A stretch of DNA of 64,000 bases from Candidatus Acidulodesulfobacterium ferriphilum (GTDB taxonomy: Bacteria; SZUA-79; Acidulodesulfobacterales; Acidulodesulfobacteraceae). Where the stretch lies: the NCBI GenBank assembly GCA_004195035.1, contig SGBD01000001.1, positions 726,368-790,367 of the forward strand, in the 5' to 3' direction. The stretch's first letter is position 1. Each line of letters begins with the position of its first letter. The position numbers and the translations under genes are program-made. This document shows positions 6,349 through 24,253 of the stretch, one piece after another. The notes beneath the pieces are model-generated. The model saw nothing but the letters and a program-made list of their open reading frames with translations. It did no database searches and was not told where the DNA came from.

Positions 6349-6903
6349 CTATTTGTTATTCTTAATTTCTTTTGCAAGCCTGAAACCGATTTCTATAGCT
6401 TTTTTGTTATAATCTTCAAAACCCTTAGGCACCCTTTTCATCAATGCCTGCTCAATCGACTCGTGAGAAACTATGCCGGAGAGTTCAACGAGAACGCCCA
6501 GCGCAATAATATTTAATCCTAAAAGCTTTCCCAGTTCCTCCCTTGCGGATTTAACCATATCGATAACATAAAGTTTGCCCTTAGCATTTGAAAAATCCGC
6601 CACAAGTTCTTTATCGGCAATTACGATGCCGTTATCTTTAACATCCTTGATATACTTGGTAAAAGACTCCTGCGTTAAGGCAACCATATAGTCAACCATT
6701 GTTGCCTTCGGGTATTCGATAGGGCTATCCGATATAATAACCTCGGATTTGCTGGAACCGCCCCTCGCTTCGGGGCCGTAAGATTGGGTTTGAACGGCAT
6801 TTTTGTTTTCGTATATCGCAGCCGCATCTGCCAGTATAATGCCTGCAAGGATTAAACCCTGACCGCCGGAACCCGCAAATCTAAACTCAGTCCTGTCACT
6901 CAT
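6349..6903 (-). CDS. korC: 2-oxoglutarate:ferredoxin oxidoreductase, gamma subunit
   Basis: Gamma subunit of a four-subunit 2-oxoacid:ferredoxin oxidoreductase. The N-terminus EFRFAGSGGQGLILAG has the Gly-rich motif typical of this subunit, followed by YGPEARGG(S)SKSEVIIS, the family hallmark (TSYGPExRGG). At 184 residues it has the expected size. It is the last of four genes transcribed leftward (D-A-B-C). Substrate assignment to 2-oxoglutarate is supported by adjacency to succinyl-CoA ligase; other 2-oxoacids cannot be fully excluded. Confidence 0.9.
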   Translation of the reverse strand: MSDRTEFRFAGSGGQGLILAGIILADAAAIYENKNAVQTQSYGPEARGGSSKSEVIISDSPIEYPKATMVDYMVALTQESFTKYIKDVKDNGIVIADKELVADFSNAKGKLYVIDMVKSAREELGKLLGLNIIALGVLVELSGIVSHESIEQALMKRVPKGFEDYNKKAIEIGFRLAKEIKNNK

Positions 6904-15835: not shown

Positions 15836-16381
15836 TTACAGAAAGGACATTCCCGCAATTTTATTATTTTTAATTACGGTTTTAATATATACGGCTTTTC
15901 CGCTTTTCAGCATTAATTTCCACATATAAAACTTAAGCCCCGCTTGTTTTAATGCAACCAAGTATTTAATATCGTAGCCGTTTTTTAATTGTAATTTATT
16001 ATTTAGAGAGTTTGACACTTTATCGAAGCTGGCTTTGCTTATGATGCTTTTAAATGCGGGCGAGGATGTTTTAATGAATTTGGTATAATTTTTTTTTGCC
16101 AGAGCATTGACCGCTTTCGACACCACTTTTTTAACGGCCTTAATCTTATCGGGACTTACATATAACTTTGCCGGCTTATTGGCATTATTAATGGAAGGAG
16201 CGTTAGTAGGAGGCGGAGCATATGGCTGGTTATCAGGCTGCGGCGGGGCATACCGGCTTGAAGAATGGGGACTTGCCGGGGGCATCGGCGCCTGCCCCTG
16301 CGAATTTAACAAATTAGCATTGGCATTGACACTAAATGCCAAAAGCGACATCAAAGCAGTTAAGTAAATAAATAGTTTCAT
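15836..16381 (-). CDS. Secreted Pro-rich protein of unknown function
   Basis: A 181-residue protein with a clear signal peptide (MKLFIYLTALMSLLAFSVNANA, cleavage after ANA). A Pro/Ser/Asn-rich linker (residues about 25-70, PMPPASPHSSSRYAPP) is followed by a basic alpha/beta domain of about 110 residues (VSPDKIKAVKKVVSKAVNALAKKNYTKF). The pattern of the second domain faintly recalls small NTF2-like secreted domains, but no family is recognised. It lies on the same strand as the copper efflux genes, yet 484 bp downstream of cusA, so co-transcription is doubtful. Confidence 0.7.
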   Translation of the reverse strand: MKLFIYLTALMSLLAFSVNANANLLNSQGQAPMPPASPHSSSRYAPPQPDNQPYAPPPTNAPSINNANKPAKLYVSPDKIKAVKKVVSKAVNALAKKNYTKFIKTSSPAFKSIISKASFDKVSNSLNNKLQLKNGYDIKYLVALKQAGLKFYMWKLMLKSGKAVYIKTVIKNNKIAGMSFL

Positions 16382-16865: not shown

Positions 16866-19800
16866 TCAGTTTCTATATCTGAAATAGTATTTATGTCCAA
16901 TTTCCCATTTTTTCCAGATAAGATATAACGTCGGCAATAAAAGCAGGTTAAGTATCGTAGCCGTGATCATCCCGCCGACCATAGGCGACGCTATGAATTT
17001 TGTCATTCTTGCTCCCGTGCCGTAGGCGAACATTGCGGGAATAAGCCCGATGATGATGGACATTGCCGTCATAACGATAGGGCGGAGCCTTAATATCGAG
17101 CCTTTGATTACTATCTGCTCTATGTCGGCGCCGGCTTCGTAATCATTATGGAACGTAAGCTCCAGTATGGAAATCATAACCACGCCTATTTCCGTCGATA
17201 CCCCCATTGCGGCGATGATGCCGACCCATACGGCAATGGACATCGTTATATGTATAAGGTAGAGATACCAGAACGCTCCGACTAACGCAAACGGTATCGA
17301 AAAAAGCGCCAGAAGCGATAACGGTACGGATTTAAAATTAAAATATATCAAAAGGAAAATAATAAATATTGTTATTGGAATTATGACCATAAGCTTGTTG
17401 TTTGCCCTTTTGAGGGATTTATATTCGCCGCTTATATTATATGTATAGCCCTTGGGAAATTTAACATATTCATTAATCATTTTTTTAGCGTTTTTAGCCC
17501 ATAATACCATATTGGGCGTGTTTAAAGTTATATCGACGGTGTCGTCAGGCGTTCCGCCTTGGGAAGATATGAAAGACGGACCGAGTTCATACTTTATAGA
17601 TGCAAGTTCTTTCAAAGGTATAAACCCGCCGTCGGTTTTTACCAGTATGTTTTTCAGAGATTTTAAGTTATTTCTATAGGCATAAGGGTATCTGACCGAA
17701 AGCGGATAACGGGCTAATCCGTCGTAAATAGTGCTTATCGTCTTGCCGCCCGCAGAGGAGTCTATAGCTTCGTTTATGTTTTTAAGCGATATTCCGTAAA
17801 AACCCATAGCATCGGCATTCGGCTTAATTACTATATATGGTCTATTATAAACTCTTTCGGCATATGCGCTCAATGTTCCCTTTACCATTGAGGCGGCTCC
17901 GGCAACACCCTCAGCCAATTTTTGCAGGGTTTTTACATTGGAGCCGTATATTTTGATTCCTATAGGCGTCCTTAAACCGGCAGACGTCATTTCTATCCTG
18001 TTTTTAATGGGCATAGTCCATACATTTTCGAGGCCGGGTATATTTAACGCTTTATTCATTTTATTAATAAGCTTTGAGGCGGTCATGCCGGCAGGCCAGT
18101 ATTTCCTTCTTTTTAAAACTATCGTCGTTTCGGCCATGCTTAAAGACGCCGGGTCGAAAGCCGTATTTGCCCTGCCCGCTTTACCGGTGACCATTTTTAC
18201 TTCCGGAAATTTTTTAATGAGCCTGTCTTCTATCTGTAAAAGCTGTGCTGCATCGGTGTAAGAATAACCCGGAGTAGAGGAAGGCATATATAAAAGCGTT
18301 CCTTCGTTTAAGGGCGGCATAAACTGCGAACCGAGCCTGACAAACGCAAAGTATCCGCTTGCCAAAACAACAAACAGCATAGCCAAAAATACAGCCTTAT
18401 GTTTCATGACAAATTTTAAAACGGGCGAGTATAAAAAAACTAAAAATCTGTTCATAGGATTTTTGTCTAAAGGCATTATCCTGCCTTTAATTAAATAAAC
18501 CATAAGAATAGGCACGAATATAACGGATAGAACAGCCGCAAAAATCATCGAAAATGTTTTAGTGTATGCTAAGGGCCTGAACAATGCACCTACTTCGCCG
18601 GTTAAAAAGAAAATGGGCAGAAATCCCACGGCTATAATAATAAGCGAGTAAAAAAGCGGTTTGCCCATCTCTTTTGCCGAATCCACGATGCAGAGTTTTT
18701 TTGCATCTTCCCTGTTTTCCATGCCGCCGTATGGACATTTTTCGGGCGCGCGTTCTAAAATTTCCAGATGCGCATGGGCGTTTTCAATCATTACTATAGC
18801 GGAATCGGTCATTGCGCCGATTGCAAGCGCTATGCCGGAAAGAGACATGATGTTCGCGCTTATGTGGAGCATATACATAAGAAAAAATGCCCCGAGAATA
18901 GCAAACGGAATCATTATAACTATAACCAGGGACGACCTTAAATGAAACAAGAAAAGCATAATAACGAAAATAACTATTAAAACTATCATAATAAGCGTGG
19001 TTTTAAGCGTAGAAACGGAACGGTGAATAAGTGTGCTCTGGTCGTATGTAGTTATTATTTTCGCGCCTTTCGGAAGAGAGTTTTTAAGTTCTTTGAGTTT
19101 ATTCTTCACGGCGGCGATTACTTTCAGCGTGTCGGAGCCCTGGTCTTTTATTACGACTCCGCCTATCATCTGTCCTTTGCCGTTTAGGTCCGATATAGAA
19201 CGGCTTGAAGCAGGCACCAATTGAACCGTTCCTATGTTTTTGACCAAAACAGGCGTGTGGGCTGCCGTCTCCCCCACGACTATGTTTCGTATCTGTTTTA
19301 AATCGTGAAGATAACCTTTGACATAGATTAAGTGGCTTACCCCCGACGAAGAGTTTATGATTCTTGCCCCATTATCGGAGTTGGAAGATTTTATATTATT
19401 AATTACCCGAGATAACGACAAATCGTAATACTGAAGCGCTTTCGGATTGACCGTAACCTGATATTCTTTATTCCAGCCGCCGTAAGTCGCAACCTGCGCC
19501 ACTCCCGGCACGGTTTCTAAGGCATATCTGAGGAAATACTCCTGATAGGAATATAAATCCGCCAAACTCTGATTATGCGCTTTGTCTATTATCGCATACT
19601 GGTAAACCCAGTCCACTCCGTTTGCGTAAGGGCTTAAAACAGGTGAAACGCCCGGAGGAAGCAGTTTTTTTGCCTGAGAAAGATATGTAAGTATCTGCGC
19701 CCTCGCCCATCCTAACGAGGTACCTCTTTTAAATACGACCGTAACAAAAGAGGTACCGTACATAGAATTTCCCCTCACCTCTTTAACCCTCGGAGCCGAA

Positions 19801-20021
19801 ATAAGCGAGGACTCTATGGGGTAGGTTACCTGAAGCTGGACTATGTTCGGCGGCTGTCCCGGCCACGCCGTTTTAATGATAACCTCTGAAGGCGCTATGT
19901 TAGGAAGGGCATTAAGCCTTATGTTGTGAATTGCGTAAACCCCGCCGAGCCCCAGAAATAACATAAAAACAAAAACCAAAAACTGATTATTTATGCAGTA
20001 ATCTATTATTTTATTTATCAT
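16866..20021 (-). CDS. cusA: Copper/silver RND efflux pump, inner-membrane transporter (CusA-type)
   Basis: A 1051-residue heavy-metal-efflux RND pump that expels Cu(I)/Ag(I) from the periplasm with CusB and CusC. It starts with the typical N-terminal helix MINKIIDYCINNQFLVF, and helix IV carries AIGAMTDSAIVMIEN with the proton-relay Asp and Glu. AIGAMxD resembles CusA rather than CzcA (AIGMVVDG). Methionines in FMPPLNEGTLLYMP and MTSAGLRTPIGIKIYG correspond to the CusA methionine region, supporting monovalent metal. A perfect 12-bp inverted repeat (19719-19757) sits in the coding sequence. It is last in the cusCBA order, 79 bp after cusB. Confidence 0.9.
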   Translation of the reverse strand: MINKIIDYCINNQFLVFVFMLFLGLGGVYAIHNIRLNALPNIAPSEVIIKTAWPGQPPNIVQLQVTYPIESSLISAPRVKEVRGNSMYGTSFVTVVFKRGTSLGWARAQILTYLSQAKKLLPPGVSPVLSPYANGVDWVYQYAIIDKAHNQSLADLYSYQEYFLRYALETVPGVAQVATYGGWNKEYQVTVNPKALQYYDLSLSRVINNIKSSNSDNGARIINSSSGVSHLIYVKGYLHDLKQIRNIVVGETAAHTPVLVKNIGTVQLVPASSRSISDLNGKGQMIGGVVIKDQGSDTLKVIAAVKNKLKELKNSLPKGAKIITTYDQSTLIHRSVSTLKTTLIMIVLIVIFVIMLFLFHLRSSLVIVIMIPFAILGAFFLMYMLHISANIMSLSGIALAIGAMTDSAIVMIENAHAHLEILERAPEKCPYGGMENREDAKKLCIVDSAKEMGKPLFYSLIIIAVGFLPIFFLTGEVGALFRPLAYTKTFSMIFAAVLSVIFVPILMVYLIKGRIMPLDKNPMNRFLVFLYSPVLKFVMKHKAVFLAMLFVVLASGYFAFVRLGSQFMPPLNEGTLLYMPSSTPGYSYTDAAQLLQIEDRLIKKFPEVKMVTGKAGRANTAFDPASLSMAETTIVLKRRKYWPAGMTASKLINKMNKALNIPGLENVWTMPIKNRIEMTSAGLRTPIGIKIYGSNVKTLQKLAEGVAGAASMVKGTLSAYAERVYNRPYIVIKPNADAMGFYGISLKNINEAIDSSAGGKTISTIYDGLARYPLSVRYPYAYRNNLKSLKNILVKTDGGFIPLKELASIKYELGPSFISSQGGTPDDTVDITLNTPNMVLWAKNAKKMINEYVKFPKGYTYNISGEYKSLKRANNKLMVIIPITIFIIFLLIYFNFKSVPLSLLALFSIPFALVGAFWYLYLIHITMSIAVWVGIIAAMGVSTEIGVVMISILELTFHNDYEAGADIEQIVIKGSILRLRPIVMTAMSIIIGLIPAMFAYGTGARMTKFIASPMVGGMITATILNLLLLPTLYLIWKKWEIGHKYYFRYRN

Positions 20022-20100
20022 ATATATTCCCCGGTATTTTAAATAACATCTTAATATTAATATTAAATTTTAAATTTATTACTCTTAAGCATCGCTTTTG

Positions 20101-21459
20101 TCACATTCCGGGCATACCGGTCATAGAAGAAGTCTTTTTTGGCCGGCCACTGTTGTTTGATATTGCCTGCGTTCCTGCCTTAAAAGAAGTCTTTTGCGAT
20201 AAATTTGAATTGTTTGACATTCCAGACATTCCGGGCATTCCCGCCATAGAACCGGTAGTCTGCGACAGATTGGAGTCGCTCGACATAAGAAAGGTTCCCG
20301 ATACGACGATTCTCTCGCCGTTTTTTAAGCCCGATATTACCGGATAATAATCGCCGTATCTTGTCCCTATAACGACATATTTCGGCATAAAATATCCCTT
20401 TCCTTTATAAACGAAAACCAGCGGTTTTGCCCCCGTAATAAGAACGGCAGATGTAGGAACCGCAATAATCTTTTCGCTTTTAATCATAATTTCGGCGTTT
20501 CCGTACATACCGGGTTTTATTTCGCCTTTTGAATTGTTAAAAACAAGCCTGACCTCGTTAACCCTTTTTTTGCCGGCAAGATAAGGGTAAATAAACGAAA
20601 CCCTGCCGTAAAATACCCGCCCGGGATAAGCGTTAAATCTCACCCTTACCGTTTCCCCCGTTTTTACGAAAGGCATATCCTTTTCATAGACCCATATGTT
20701 CATCCATACGCGGCTCAGTCCTGCCAGTTTATAAAGCGGCTGTCCCGCATTAAAATAACTTCCGGAAAAAATAGATTTTTTCAAGAAGACGCCGTTTACC
20801 GGCGAATAAACCGTCGTGTTCGTTAAGATAAGCATTCCCATTTTTAGCATGTTCAATTGGCTGTTTGTTACGCCGAACTGTTTGAGCCTGAAGACGGAGG
20901 AATTTAAAAAGGATTTAGCTTCATTTTTGCCGAAATTAAAACCGGATTTTTTTAATTTTATATAATTTTTATAAGCAAGTATGAAATCATTTTCGCTGTT
21001 GACCAACTCCGGACTGTAAACCGTAAAAAGGGGCTCTCCTTTATAAACGCTCATACCGGGTTTATTTATAAAGAGGTTTTTGACGTAACCGCCGTATTTC
21101 AATGTTACGGTTTTTTCTAAAGGAACGCCGTAAGCAACCTCGCCTATAGTTTTAATTTTTCTCGTCAATTTCATTAATTTTACTTTTCCGACTTTTATAC
21201 CGTAAAGCTGTCTTTGAATCGTGCTTACCATTACCCCGCCCTTAGCCATTTTCATCTTAGGTTTTGCGTTTACGCTTTTTCCGGCGGGAATCCTGTTATC
21301 CGTTCCGGTAAATATACCCGTATTTCTAAAAATTATAACGGTAATAATGCCGCCGAGAATAAAGGCGGATAAAAATACTAAGATGTTTTTAGCGTTATTT
21401 GAAACTTGACCGCTTCGCTCTCGGCCTTCGGCCTCGTGAAATTTTTTCAAAATTTTCAT
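20101..21459 (-). CDS. cusB: RND efflux periplasmic adaptor (CusB-type) with Met-rich tail
   Basis: Membrane fusion protein linking CusA to the outer-membrane channel, 452 residues. It has an N-terminal membrane anchor (residues about 25-45), a barrel-sandwich/lipoyl region (GYVKNLFINKPGMSVYKGEPLFTVYSPEL), an alpha-helical hairpin, and a beta-barrel (VWMNIWVYEKDMPFVKTGE). The last 50 residues consist of about three degenerate 20-residue units (NSNLSQ..., MAGMPGMSGM, MTGMPGM) rich in Met, suggesting extra Cu(I) binding. Residues 7-16 (FHEAEGRERS) are encoded by a dispersed repeat segment (21411-21440). Spacing to cusC is 34 bp. Confidence 0.88.
   Translation of the reverse strand: MKILKKFHEAEGRERSGQVSNNAKNILVFLSAFILGGIITVIIFRNTGIFTGTDNRIPAGKSVNAKPKMKMAKGGVMVSTIQRQLYGIKVGKVKLMKLTRKIKTIGEVAYGVPLEKTVTLKYGGYVKNLFINKPGMSVYKGEPLFTVYSPELVNSENDFILAYKNYIKLKKSGFNFGKNEAKSFLNSSVFRLKQFGVTNSQLNMLKMGMLILTNTTVYSPVNGVFLKKSIFSGSYFNAGQPLYKLAGLSRVWMNIWVYEKDMPFVKTGETVRVRFNAYPGRVFYGRVSFIYPYLAGKKRVNEVRLVFNNSKGEIKPGMYGNAEIMIKSEKIIAVPTSAVLITGAKPLVFVYKGKGYFMPKYVVIGTRYGDYYPVISGLKNGERIVVSGTFLMSSDSNLSQTTGSMAGMPGMSGMSNNSNLSQKTSFKAGTQAISNNSGRPKKTSSMTGMPGM
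21411..21440. repeat. Dispersed repeat segment inside the cusB coding region
   Basis: The minus-strand reading of this 30-bp segment (TTCACGAGGCCGAAGG...) matches 35849-35878 at 27 of 30 positions; the latter is part of an intergenic copy of the CATTCCCGC repeat family. It is in frame within the cytoplasmic N-terminus of CusB and encodes HEAEGRERS. Confidence 0.65.
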
Positions 21460-21493
21460 TCTAATAAACTCCTTAATTTTATTTCTTTGATTT

Positions 21494-22816
21494 TTATTGT
21501 ATTTTTCCCATAACCTGTTCGAGACGGGATTTGTCTATATAATATTTTGCATTATATGTATCTCTTTTAAACTCCGAATCGATTAACTTCCTGAAACTGT
21601 CTAAAAGCGGGAATGCGGACGACCTTTTTACTTCAAAAGATGCCGTTTCGGCTTTAAAAAGAAGTTTTGCTTCGGGAACATACAGGCTTTCGTATAATCT
21701 ATAATTATTTTTGTTTAAACGCATATCTTTTGCATATACTTTAATGTTTTTTATAATGCGCAGTTTTTCCCAGCTAATATCGTAAATAGACGCAAGCCTG
21801 TCCTTTTCGGCTTTATTTATCAAAGGTTTTTGATAGGAATTAAAATATACGGGCAGGGATAACCCGACCGAAGCCGATAAAATGGGAACCATCGAATATC
21901 TGTCCCCGTAACCGGCTTTAAGATAAAAATCGGGAAGATACGATTCCTTTGCATATGCGGTTTCATAATCCGATTTTTTGGCGAGATATTTTAGCGATTT
22001 TAATTCCGGATTAAATTTATATGCCGTTTTTATATCTTCTTTTTCGTTTAATTTATCTTTCGGGGACATGCCCGTTTTTGCCCCCTTTTTTTCCTCCGAT
22101 ATTTTCGGCAGTTCGGCGCGGCTGGATTTAATATACGAAACTTTTAACCCTGTGAGTTCGCCCAGTAAATAAATTAATTCAGCTTTGGCTTTATTAAGCG
22201 AAAACAATTCCGATTTCAACGATGCGTCTTCCAGCATAGTCCTGATATAAGCCGGAGCGGAAGCGCTTCCCGTGCCGTATTTTTGGGAAATATCTTTAAG
22301 GATTATATTTAAAAGCAGCCTGTTATATTTCACCACAATAATCTGTTTTTCTAACAAAGCAAGATTATAATAGGTTTCCTTGACCAAATAAGCGGTATTA
22401 ATTTTTAATGCTCTTGTTTTTGCTTTTGACGACATATAGGAATACTTATTTATTTGGCTTTTTGTTCCAAGTTTCGAAGGAAAGGGTATCTTCTGGCTTA
22501 TACTGAAGCCGATATAGCTCATCCCATTAACCCCGATTCCGGGATTATTAAACCCGTTTGCGTCGGTAAGCCCTATTCCTGCCACCGGTTCCGGAAGGGC
22601 TTTTGCAATAGCAATTTCTTCTTTGCGCCCTTCAGCCTTCAGAGCGGATGAAGTTATATCAGGATTTTTCAAGGCATTTTTTATAAGCATTTTTAAAGAC
22701 AATGCGTCTGCCGCATAAGACCTGCCGCCGTAAAAGATTAAACCTGTTAAAATGACAAAGAAAGAAAACAGGATTAAAACCTTTCGCTTTAACCAGCATA
22801 AATTAAATATATTCAT
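21494..22816 (-). CDS. cusC: Outer-membrane efflux channel (TolC/CusC family)
   Basis: Outer-membrane factor of the tripartite copper pump, 440 residues. The N-terminal signal segment is VLILFSFFVILTGLIFYGG, and the start of the mature domain, ADALSLKMLIKNALKNPDI, matches the first helix of TolC-like proteins. Two repeats of long helical hairpins follow (QIIVVKYNRLLLNIILKDISQKYGTG; LYVPEAKLLFKAETASFEVKRSSAFPLLD). No lipoprotein Cys is evident. It precedes cusB and cusA in the same direction. Family identity is clear; the exact name depends on the operon context. Confidence 0.87.
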   Translation of the reverse strand: MNIFNLCWLKRKVLILFSFFVILTGLIFYGGRSYAADALSLKMLIKNALKNPDITSSALKAEGRKEEIAIAKALPEPVAGIGLTDANGFNNPGIGVNGMSYIGFSISQKIPFPSKLGTKSQINKYSYMSSKAKTRALKINTAYLVKETYYNLALLEKQIIVVKYNRLLLNIILKDISQKYGTGSASAPAYIRTMLEDASLKSELFSLNKAKAELIYLLGELTGLKVSYIKSSRAELPKISEEKKGAKTGMSPKDKLNEKEDIKTAYKFNPELKSLKYLAKKSDYETAYAKESYLPDFYLKAGYGDRYSMVPILSASVGLSLPVYFNSYQKPLINKAEKDRLASIYDISWEKLRIIKNIKVYAKDMRLNKNNYRLYESLYVPEAKLLFKAETASFEVKRSSAFPLLDSFRKLIDSEFKRDTYNAKYYIDKSRLEQVMGKIQ

Positions 22817-22846
22817 ATTATTTATTCTCCATAATTAATATAAAAT

Positions 22847-22931
22847 CCTAATCCTGCAATACTGCACGAGAACTTCGCTTAATCCCCCGCCCCGCCTTGT
22901 TATGGCGATGCGTAAGGAGTGCGGGATTAGG
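22847..22931. repeat. 85-bp palindromic intergenic element
   Basis: Bounded by 11-bp inverted ends CCTAATCCTGC (22847-22857) and GCGGGATTAGG (22921-22931), matching at 10 of 11, with GC-rich interior CCCCCGCCCCGCC. The ends resemble the CCTTAATCCTG ends of the longer element at 45186-45348. It lies between the cytochrome gene and cusC in the copper operon. Confidence 0.6.
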
Positions 22932-22957
22932 GTAAAATTTTGAATAATCTCTTTTTA

Positions 22958-23521
22958 TTATTTTAAGGATTCGAGATACTTTGCCAGTATGCCGATATTC
23001 TTTGAGGACATATTTTTAAAAGAAGGCATAACAGCCCTGTATCTAACCCCGCTTAAAGTTACTACGCTGTTTCTCTTAAAATGCGCGGAGGGGTCGGCTA
23101 TCTGGGTCGCAATCCATGAAAAACTTCTTATAGAGCCGATATGCGATAGATTGGGCGCATCGTTGCCGCCGGCACCTAAGCCGTTTATCGTATGGCACAT
23201 AAAACAGCCTTCATAATGGAATAAAGCCGGTCCGGTTTTTACACCTTTATATTGGGGAAACATCCTGTGTCCCATATTATTTACCTCTTTTCCAGTCATG
23301 TTATTGCCCATGCCCATCATTCCGTTCATCATGCCGCCGTTACCGCCCATCATTCCGTTACCGCCCATGCCCATCATTCCCTTATTGCCGCTGGTGTTAG
23401 CCGCACCCTGAGCATAACTAAATTTCGCTAAATAAATCCCTGCAATAACCACTATAACTAACAGTACCGATAATATCGAAACAGTTACAAATTTCTTGTT
23501 ATGCAAATATTTTGTTTTCAT
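22958..23521 (-). CDS. Membrane-anchored Met-rich c-type cytochrome
   Basis: A 187-residue protein with one N-terminal membrane helix (residues 11-30) and a periplasmic part. Residues 46-76 form a Gly/Met/Asn repeat region (GNKGMMGMGGNGMMGGNGG), with 11 methionines in 27 residues (49-75), resembling Cu(I)-binding Met motifs. A monoheme cytochrome c domain follows with CFMCH (Cys106, Cys109, His110) and VMPSFKNMS as the likely Met heme ligand. It is first or second in the leftward copper operon, about 140 bp before cusC. A role in periplasmic copper redox chemistry or electron transfer is inferred from context only; no known Cus system uses such a subunit to my knowledge. Confidence 0.85.
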   Translation of the reverse strand: MKTKYLHNKKFVTVSILSVLLVIVVIAGIYLAKFSYAQGAANTSGNKGMMGMGGNGMMGGNGGMMNGMMGMGNNMTGKEVNNMGHRMFPQYKGVKTGPALFHYEGCFMCHTINGLGAGGNDAPNLSHIGSIRSFSWIATQIADPSAHFKRNSVVTLSGVRYRAVMPSFKNMSSKNIGILAKYLESLK

Positions 23522-23700
23522 AAAGAACTCCCTTCTTGTAATTTAATAATTTAATTATGTTAATTTTAATTTGCGAGCATCTTAAACATAAACATAGGAT
23601 GATAGCATAAGATACAATAATAGATAAAACTATAGCGGATCATATCTTAAGCTGACGAACTTATGTTCGATGCATTTGCGATAAAGATTGGCTGTTTAAT

Positions 23701-24141
23701 TTAACTAAATAAGGTAAGGCTGTTTTGAGGGGGATGGGGTATATCGGAAGAAAAATGTTTAATATAGGATTTTCCCGGGGATGAGATTGTTTTAACAAAA
23801 CTACCGTAATAAAATGATACGGGATAATAAGTGGTTGGTAAATTCTGACATTCTACGCAGGTTACGTAAGACTGCAAATTTAACTCATTGGAATTTGGCG
23901 AAACGGTTTTAAAAAAAGTAAGCGGAGATGCTTTTTGCACCCCTTGCACAAGTTTCCCCGCCGCCTGTCCCGCCTGCATCGTATTCATAGACATTCCCGC
24001 CTGCATCGGGGACATTATCATCGGAGCATTAAACATGGAGCTTATTTCGGGAGCTCCGATTAGAGAAAAAACCGCAATAGCGGCAAGAGGAAAAAATAGA
24101 AAAAACTTATATTTTTTATTCAAAAGTATTTGGATTTTCAT
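23701..24141 (-). CDS. Small exported Met-rich protein with a CxxC motif
   Basis: A 146-residue protein of no recognised family. An N-terminal hydrophobic segment (KFFLFFPLAAIAVFSLIGA) is a signal peptide or anchor. It is followed by a methionine cluster, MFNAPMIMSPMQAGMSMNTMQAG (residues 36-58, here spelled in parts: MIMSPMQAGM, SMNTMQAG), and later CVEC (Cys95, Cys98) with C-terminal His residues (KHFSSDIPHPPQ). The Met cluster and CxxC suggest a periplasmic copper-binding protein. It lies 179 bp upstream of the Met-rich cytochrome in the same direction, so it is probably a member of the copper locus. Confidence 0.65.
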   Translation of the reverse strand: MKIQILLNKKYKFFLFFPLAAIAVFSLIGAPEISSMFNAPMIMSPMQAGMSMNTMQAGQAAGKLVQGVQKASPLTFFKTVSPNSNELNLQSYVTCVECQNLPTTYYPVSFYYGSFVKTISSPGKSYIKHFSSDIPHPPQNSLTLFS

Positions 24142-24253
24142 ATTACATATATTATTATATATACATTACATTGGAAAGAATATCACCTGCCATAGGAAAT
24201 GTCAAGGATATTCTCGGCCTTTGGGCCTTTGTAAGACAACAATATATGTATGG

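Follow-up and report, generated by a model that had tools for sequence, protein, structure and literature searches.

A probable leader peptide with the anatomy of a nascent-chain copper sensor at the head of a Cu(I)-efflux operon in Candidatus Acidulodesulfobacterium ferriphilum

In Candidatus Acidulodesulfobacterium ferriphilum the genes for a CusCBA-type Cu(I) efflux pump are preceded by one gene for a small exported protein and one for a methionine-rich cytochrome c, which raises the question of which of the two connects the operon to copper. The locus lies in the 64,000-nucleotide (nt) stretch analyzed here (the window; contig SGBD01000001.1, positions 726,368 to 790,367), which sits in a 1.87-Mb assembly; its host is a member of the phylum of Candidatus Acidulodesulfobacterales, an acid-mine order in which cusAB transcripts have been reported (PMC6776010). 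Transcription runs on the minus strand from a leader open reading frame (ORF) of 146 residues (23701..24141) through the cytochrome gene (22958..23521) to cusC, cusB and cusA (cusCBA, 16866-22816), and an earlier reading of the sequence (the original prediction) had placed all five genes correctly. That reading coupled the heme protein to the pump. We favor instead, with a probability of roughly 70%, an explanation by analogy with known systems, in which the leader would be a lineage-specific nascent-chain copper sensor gating the Cu(I)-efflux operon, and the same control would extend to the cytochrome, an optional second gene.

The distribution of the two genes separates them clearly. Among 30 genomes of the phylum, all from one family, 19 carry cus genes, and the 5' flank is readable in 18 of these (the sequence of G022 stops within cusC). 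The leader stands directly 5' of cusC, or of the cytochrome gene, in all 18, and this linkage covers CusA lineages that are just 62-68% identical to the CusA of the window. The cytochrome gene is intact between leader and cusC in six genomes with differing flanking genes (G000, G010, G011, G013, G019 and G024) and missing in 11; in G021 a deletion remnant (L107:1077-1262) keeps only its first 22 residues, fused to what had been the downstream intergenic sequence. Because the linkage is 18/18 for one gene and 6/18 for the other, the leader is the constant partner of cusCBA and the cytochrome is optional. Beyond the phylum, none of 58 CusA loci gathered by a CusA search has a cytochrome gene directly beside cus, the nearest lying about 1 kb upstream (L176). 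The co-occurrence of cytochrome and pump that the original prediction proposed as a check is thus real in several species of the phylum and was not seen at the loci outside it. One further genome (G028, L042) has a leader-cytochrome pair standing alone, and CusA gives no match there at the threshold applied; this pair, together with the linkage to cus in several species, makes the cytochrome plausibly a member of the copper regulon.

The leader itself was correctly foreseen as a small exported protein with a CxxC motif and a cluster of methionines. The Met cluster (M36-M55; 23977..24036, minus strand, as for all features below) reaches 7 Met in 27 residues and is conserved in only part of the family. 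The Cys motif, CVEC at residues 95-98 (23848..23859), is more constant, with C95, E97, C98 and N100 invariant in alignment A1, and the C-terminal HPP (residues 136-138; 23728..23736), a candidate ribosome-arrest motif, is invariant in alignments A1 and A3. In the relatives the N-terminus is short and hydrophobic, CxECxN is invariant and an HPP lies near the C-terminus; one family member, at L054, has CGIEC instead of CxEC. Counted from the first Cys to the first Pro of HPP, the distance is 42 residues in most of the 28 sequences (23), with four at 41 and one at 43, and it is held while the residues between CxEC and HPP are replaced wholesale between subfamilies and lengths elsewhere in the protein vary. 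The ratio of nonsynonymous to synonymous substitution rates (dN/dS) is 0.34-0.44 for the leader against 0.06-0.08 for CusA, indicating that it is translated and weakly constrained, which is what one would predict if nothing but the motifs mattered.

Relatives of the leader also head other operons. A family profile search brought out a second subfamily (B); at eight loci its members are immediately followed by TlpA-CcdA or TlpA-ResB-CcsA genes, one of these loci (in G020) being cut short by the contig end. Another relative (L109) heads copZ-copZ-copA, a further one (L232) precedes two genes, one whose product has CAVCH and one encoding heavy-metal-binding domains of the CPMHP type, and a single relative was found before a 691-residue lipoprotein-like protein. 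The commonest context of the family is Cu(I) export by cusCBA, to which copZ-copA adds. To judge from a title cited in PMC7558416, the assembly of c-type cytochromes is a reported target of copper toxicity, so that the TlpA-CcdA and ResB-CcsA contexts also fit copper. What the sequences themselves establish is the anatomy, the fixed spacing, the coding constraint and the position before copper-export or thiol/cytochrome-maturation genes.

These properties recall two small exported proteins that regulate copper genes from the nascent chain. The published rule for CutF-like proteins asks for fewer than 150 residues, a signal peptide, a PP among the final 15 residues and, no more than 1 kb away, a gene on the same strand; the neighbor they most often have is an outer-membrane factor of the OEP/CusC type (PMC9973294). 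The leader of the window has 146 residues, a hydrophobic N-terminus judged by eye to be a signal, PP at 137-138 and the next gene 179 nt on. CutF of Rhodobacter capsulatus is likewise small and exported, with a Cys motif (CxxxC, 69-73), a C-terminal PP and the first position before copper genes (PMC8456105, PMC9973294). CruR of Bordetella pertussis (DUF2946/PF11162), a 145-residue exported ORF heading a copper operon, combines CxxC with an xxPP near the C-terminus; copper is sensed through CxxC, RAPP is required, and the spacing is conserved, with only small changes tolerated (PMC9426467). Its arrest has been demonstrated in vitro (PMC12992588). The intergenic region that follows is 162 nt long in the CruR operon and 179 nt in the window. 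The specific combination of CruR, CxxC with RAPP at 51 residues, is replaced in the leader by CxEC and HPP at 42, and the principle of a fixed spacing holds. It is this sensor anatomy of the CutF/CruR type that makes the leader a better account of copper sensing at the operon than the cytochrome. Nor is such a gene before cus peculiar to this phylum: in a rule-based scan of the CusA loci from other phyla, 19-20 of the 58 carry a CutF/CopL-like ORF just 5' of cusC, at about 8 per 100 kb versus about 1 in control stretches, some seven times background, so that a leader before cus is both known and widespread. The novelty lies in the leader family, which Pfam and NCBIfam do not recognize, which has a motif and a spacing of its own, and which also occurs before cytochrome c maturation genes.

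The ribosome exit tunnel holds roughly 30-40 residues, and this figure underlies the tunnel part of the proposed mechanism. The nascent leader would enter the Sec pathway, and the ribosome would pause once translation reached the C-terminal HPP; at that moment the CxEC, 42 residues back, would be just out of the tunnel and able to bind Cu(I), possibly assisted by the Met cluster. Copper would then alter this pause, and whether the downstream genes are transcribed or translated would be decided by the ribosome, stalled or set free. Copper should turn this efflux operon on, as for CutF; with CruR, copper turns an uptake operon off. The arrest, the copper binding, the polarity and the step under control are what we infer from the two characterized systems. 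If the scheme is right, a testable leader peptide replaces the imagined heme sensor as the site of copper sensing at the operon, and the reach of the CutF/CruR idea grows by a family that goes unrecognized in current libraries. A spacing held at 42 residues where the sequence is not conserved also yields a simple prediction of where the Cys motif stands when the ribosome pauses. The placement of the family before TlpA-CcdA and ResB-CcsA would further connect cytochrome c maturation with copper stress in bacteria of acid mines, for which the reported copper damage to cytochrome assembly would matter.

Several observations weigh against the leader as such a sensor. In detail it differs from both models, having CxEC where CutF has CxxxC, HPP(Q/K) against GPPP and a spacing of 42 against about 45; relative to CruR, the spacing is 42 rather than 51 and the motif is xHPP(Q/K) rather than RAPP/RGPP. 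The leader matches nothing in Pfam or NCBIfam, PF11162 included: DUF2946 was found in none of the 30 genomes at E 0.1, and no member of A1 matches it. With neither DUF2946 nor any other family match, homology to CutF or CruR is unsupported, and the leader is likened to them by its proposed working mode and not by descent, although CutF-like proteins are often beyond the reach of sequence detection (PMC8456105). One leader in the phylum (G027, L098:7559-7867) is without HPP and overlaps cusC. The leader-cytochrome intergenic region (23522..23700, 179 nt) has a predicted hairpin at 23604-23653, yet its RNA fold is not better than that of shuffled sequences (z -1.12), so it stands only as a candidate regulatory region; masking of the ribosome-binding site of the next gene is not consistent, and no clear stem-loop over that site is seen, a difference from CutF. 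A search of plasmids with the leader gave no match, and a profile hidden Markov model of the family gave nothing convincing in 40 genomes of other phyla. As a separate observation, the CusA locus of a Nitrospina (L169, ~6581-6874) has, upstream of cus, a 97-residue ORF ending in HPPQ with CEKC 42 residues earlier.

The cytochrome is, as the original prediction described it, a Met-rich monoheme protein encoded 5' of cusCBA. The class-I-like cytochrome c of 187 residues matches PF00034 (E 2.2e-11; 45.4 bits, cut-off 21.3), with a single CxxCH, the heme-attachment motif CFMCH at residues 106-110 (23192..23206), and a conserved [VI]MP whose methionine, M165 of VMP (23027..23029), is the candidate distal heme ligand and is conserved in all aligned orthologues and paralogues. 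Its Met/Gly/Asn-rich segment (residues 49-75; 23297..23377) holds 11 Met in 27 residues. In a count over 27-residue stretches in the 72 window ORFs of at least 100 residues, this density ranks first, followed by the leader (7), with CusB tied for third (5). Orthologues occur in eight genomes, and the Met-rich N-terminal segment varies among them. The window protein has a plausible signal-peptidase site, SYA|QG, by eye, and some orthologues are without one; the membrane anchoring supposed earlier is thus no more than possible. A copper role is plausible given the linkage. Most likely the protein carries electrons on the periplasmic side through a His/Met-ligated heme, and its Met-rich tail would hold Cu(I); it would serve either as an electron acceptor for Cu(I) or as a copper-tolerant substitute carrier. 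By sequence, accepting electrons from Cu(I), standing in as a copper-tolerant spare carrier and simply binding copper are indistinguishable roles.

The original prediction went further, suggesting the cytochrome as the functional partner of the pump, one that would oxidize or reduce copper or sense periplasmic copper redox for CusCBA. The recurrent linkage amid different flanking genes, the exceptional Met content, the conserved His/Met-type heme motifs and the leader-cytochrome pair without cus all lend it something, and there is a precedent in Nitratiruptor, where a cytochrome c gene beside an SO_0444 Cu/Zn efflux gene belongs to a copper-induced metal-efflux cluster that also has a TolC-family gene (PMC10092412). 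That cluster, however, is not CusCBA, and the likeness drawn here is one of gene arrangement. Against an essential or sensing partner stand the many cus loci that do without the cytochrome, its deletion in G021, its absence from beside cus in the other phyla, and the MMG-rich N-termini of paralogues that have no cus linkage. As an indispensable component the cytochrome is not borne out, and a functional partnership in any of these forms is doubtful. About equally tentative is the view that it is a copper-tolerant spare electron carrier, produced during copper stress and taking no direct part in copper chemistry; this would suit the leader relatives that head cytochrome c maturation genes and the presence of several cytochromes of the same domain family in the genome of the window, but it leaves the 11-Met segment unexplained.

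The leader, too, admits other readings, each of them unlikely. It might sense the periplasmic thiol redox state or export status and not copper itself, as the position of subfamily B before genes for thiol reduction and cytochrome c maturation, the ability of a CxxC to form a disulfide, and the precedent of arrest peptides such as SecM, which sense export, would allow; yet Cu(I) export by cusCBA, plus copZ-copA, is the commonest context of the family, and the maturation genes fit copper as well, if the title cited in PMC7558416 is a guide. A role as a periplasmic metallochaperone for Cu(I), standing in for CusF and passing copper to CusB, is similarly improbable: the leader is exported with a Met cluster and a CxxC, CusF_Ec was not found in the 30 genomes, and CutF was at first also taken for a chaperone (PMC8456105), but the Met cluster is not kept in all subfamilies, the invariance lies mainly in short motifs and their spacing, relatives head operons that lack an RND (resistance-nodulation-division) pump, and the constraint is weak. 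Returning to the leader as a copper sensor, a wider scheme can be drawn in which phylum-specific nascent-chain copper/thiol sensors, probably on leaderless mRNA, would coordinate the export of Cu(I) with the maturation of c-type cytochromes and with a Met-rich cytochrome, the last oxidizing periplasmic Cu(I) and passing the electrons to respiration; taken as a whole we hold this to be a long shot.

The pump itself is of a familiar kind. CusA (16866..20021) matches the CusA/CzcA family TIGR00914 over its full length (931.9 bits, cut-off 701.45), and the closest solved structure is that of E. coli CusA (E 2e-258), ahead of ZneA (2e-120). Its M579, M629 and M678, invariant in the CusA alignment A2, align with the Met triad of the E. 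coli protein, M573/M623/M672. Judged by this triad, the CusA of the window is a heavy-metal-efflux (HME) RND pump of the Cu(I)/Ag(I) type. Candidatus Acididesulfobacter diazotrophicus AP1 emerged from the CusA search as a same-family relative of the host. CusB, the periplasmic adaptor (20101..21459; PF16576, HlyD_D23, E 3.8e-55), aligns with E. coli CusB over residues 72-402 (E 6.7e-23). Its Met-rich C-terminal tail, noted in the original prediction, is present in the window species and is not general, many orthologues of 383-412 residues lacking it. A tie between this tail and the presence of the cytochrome was considered and dropped, as the two do not correlate (tail without cytochrome at L097, cytochrome without tail at L040). 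CusC (21494..22816; PF02321, E 3.6e-33) is an outer-membrane factor of the OEP/TolC family. The operon thus shares CusA with its Met triad, CusB and CusC with E. coli CusCFBA, and differs in its additional leader and optional cytochrome and in the chaperone, as CusF (PF11604) was detected in none of the 30 genomes of the phylum with a search that found the E. coli control. No CusRS two-component genes were seen immediately adjoining the window operon.

Upstream of the leader, the best sigma-70-like promoter candidate in a consensus scan is TTGACA-17-TATTCT with TG before the -10 (24177..24205), in a region where the number of such sites is not above that in shuffled sequences. By eye, no ribosome-binding site is visible before the leader ATG (24142-24205 and the upstream regions of orthologues), and a -10-like box can be made out in several orthologues, its end about 7 nt 5' of this ATG. 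Taken together, these two features suggest that the leader mRNA is leaderless.

The history of the cytochrome segment appears to differ from that of its neighbors. Between the window and another genus (L038:9163-9726), synonymous divergence (dS) is 0.08 for the cytochrome gene and 0.18 for cusB, as against 0.45-0.47 for the leader, cusC and cusA, which suggests that the cytochrome segment has recombined. Paralogous MMG-rich cytochromes are encoded at L044:14025-14906 and L045:10045-10905, each forming a pair with a small membrane protein that looks SHOCT-like by eye, and the one at L044 lies near an ArsR-like gene and a gene for a 246-residue Met-rich protein. At two further loci, L052:6643-9731 in the genome of the window and L054:1533-4577 in G029, paired genes for an outer-membrane factor and an adaptor are followed by another member of the same cytochrome domain family, which is a second efflux-cytochrome linkage. 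Finally, downstream of cusA the window encodes a Pro-rich exported protein of 181 residues (15836-16381), a homologue of which lies beside the cus locus of another genus (L041:6065-6589).

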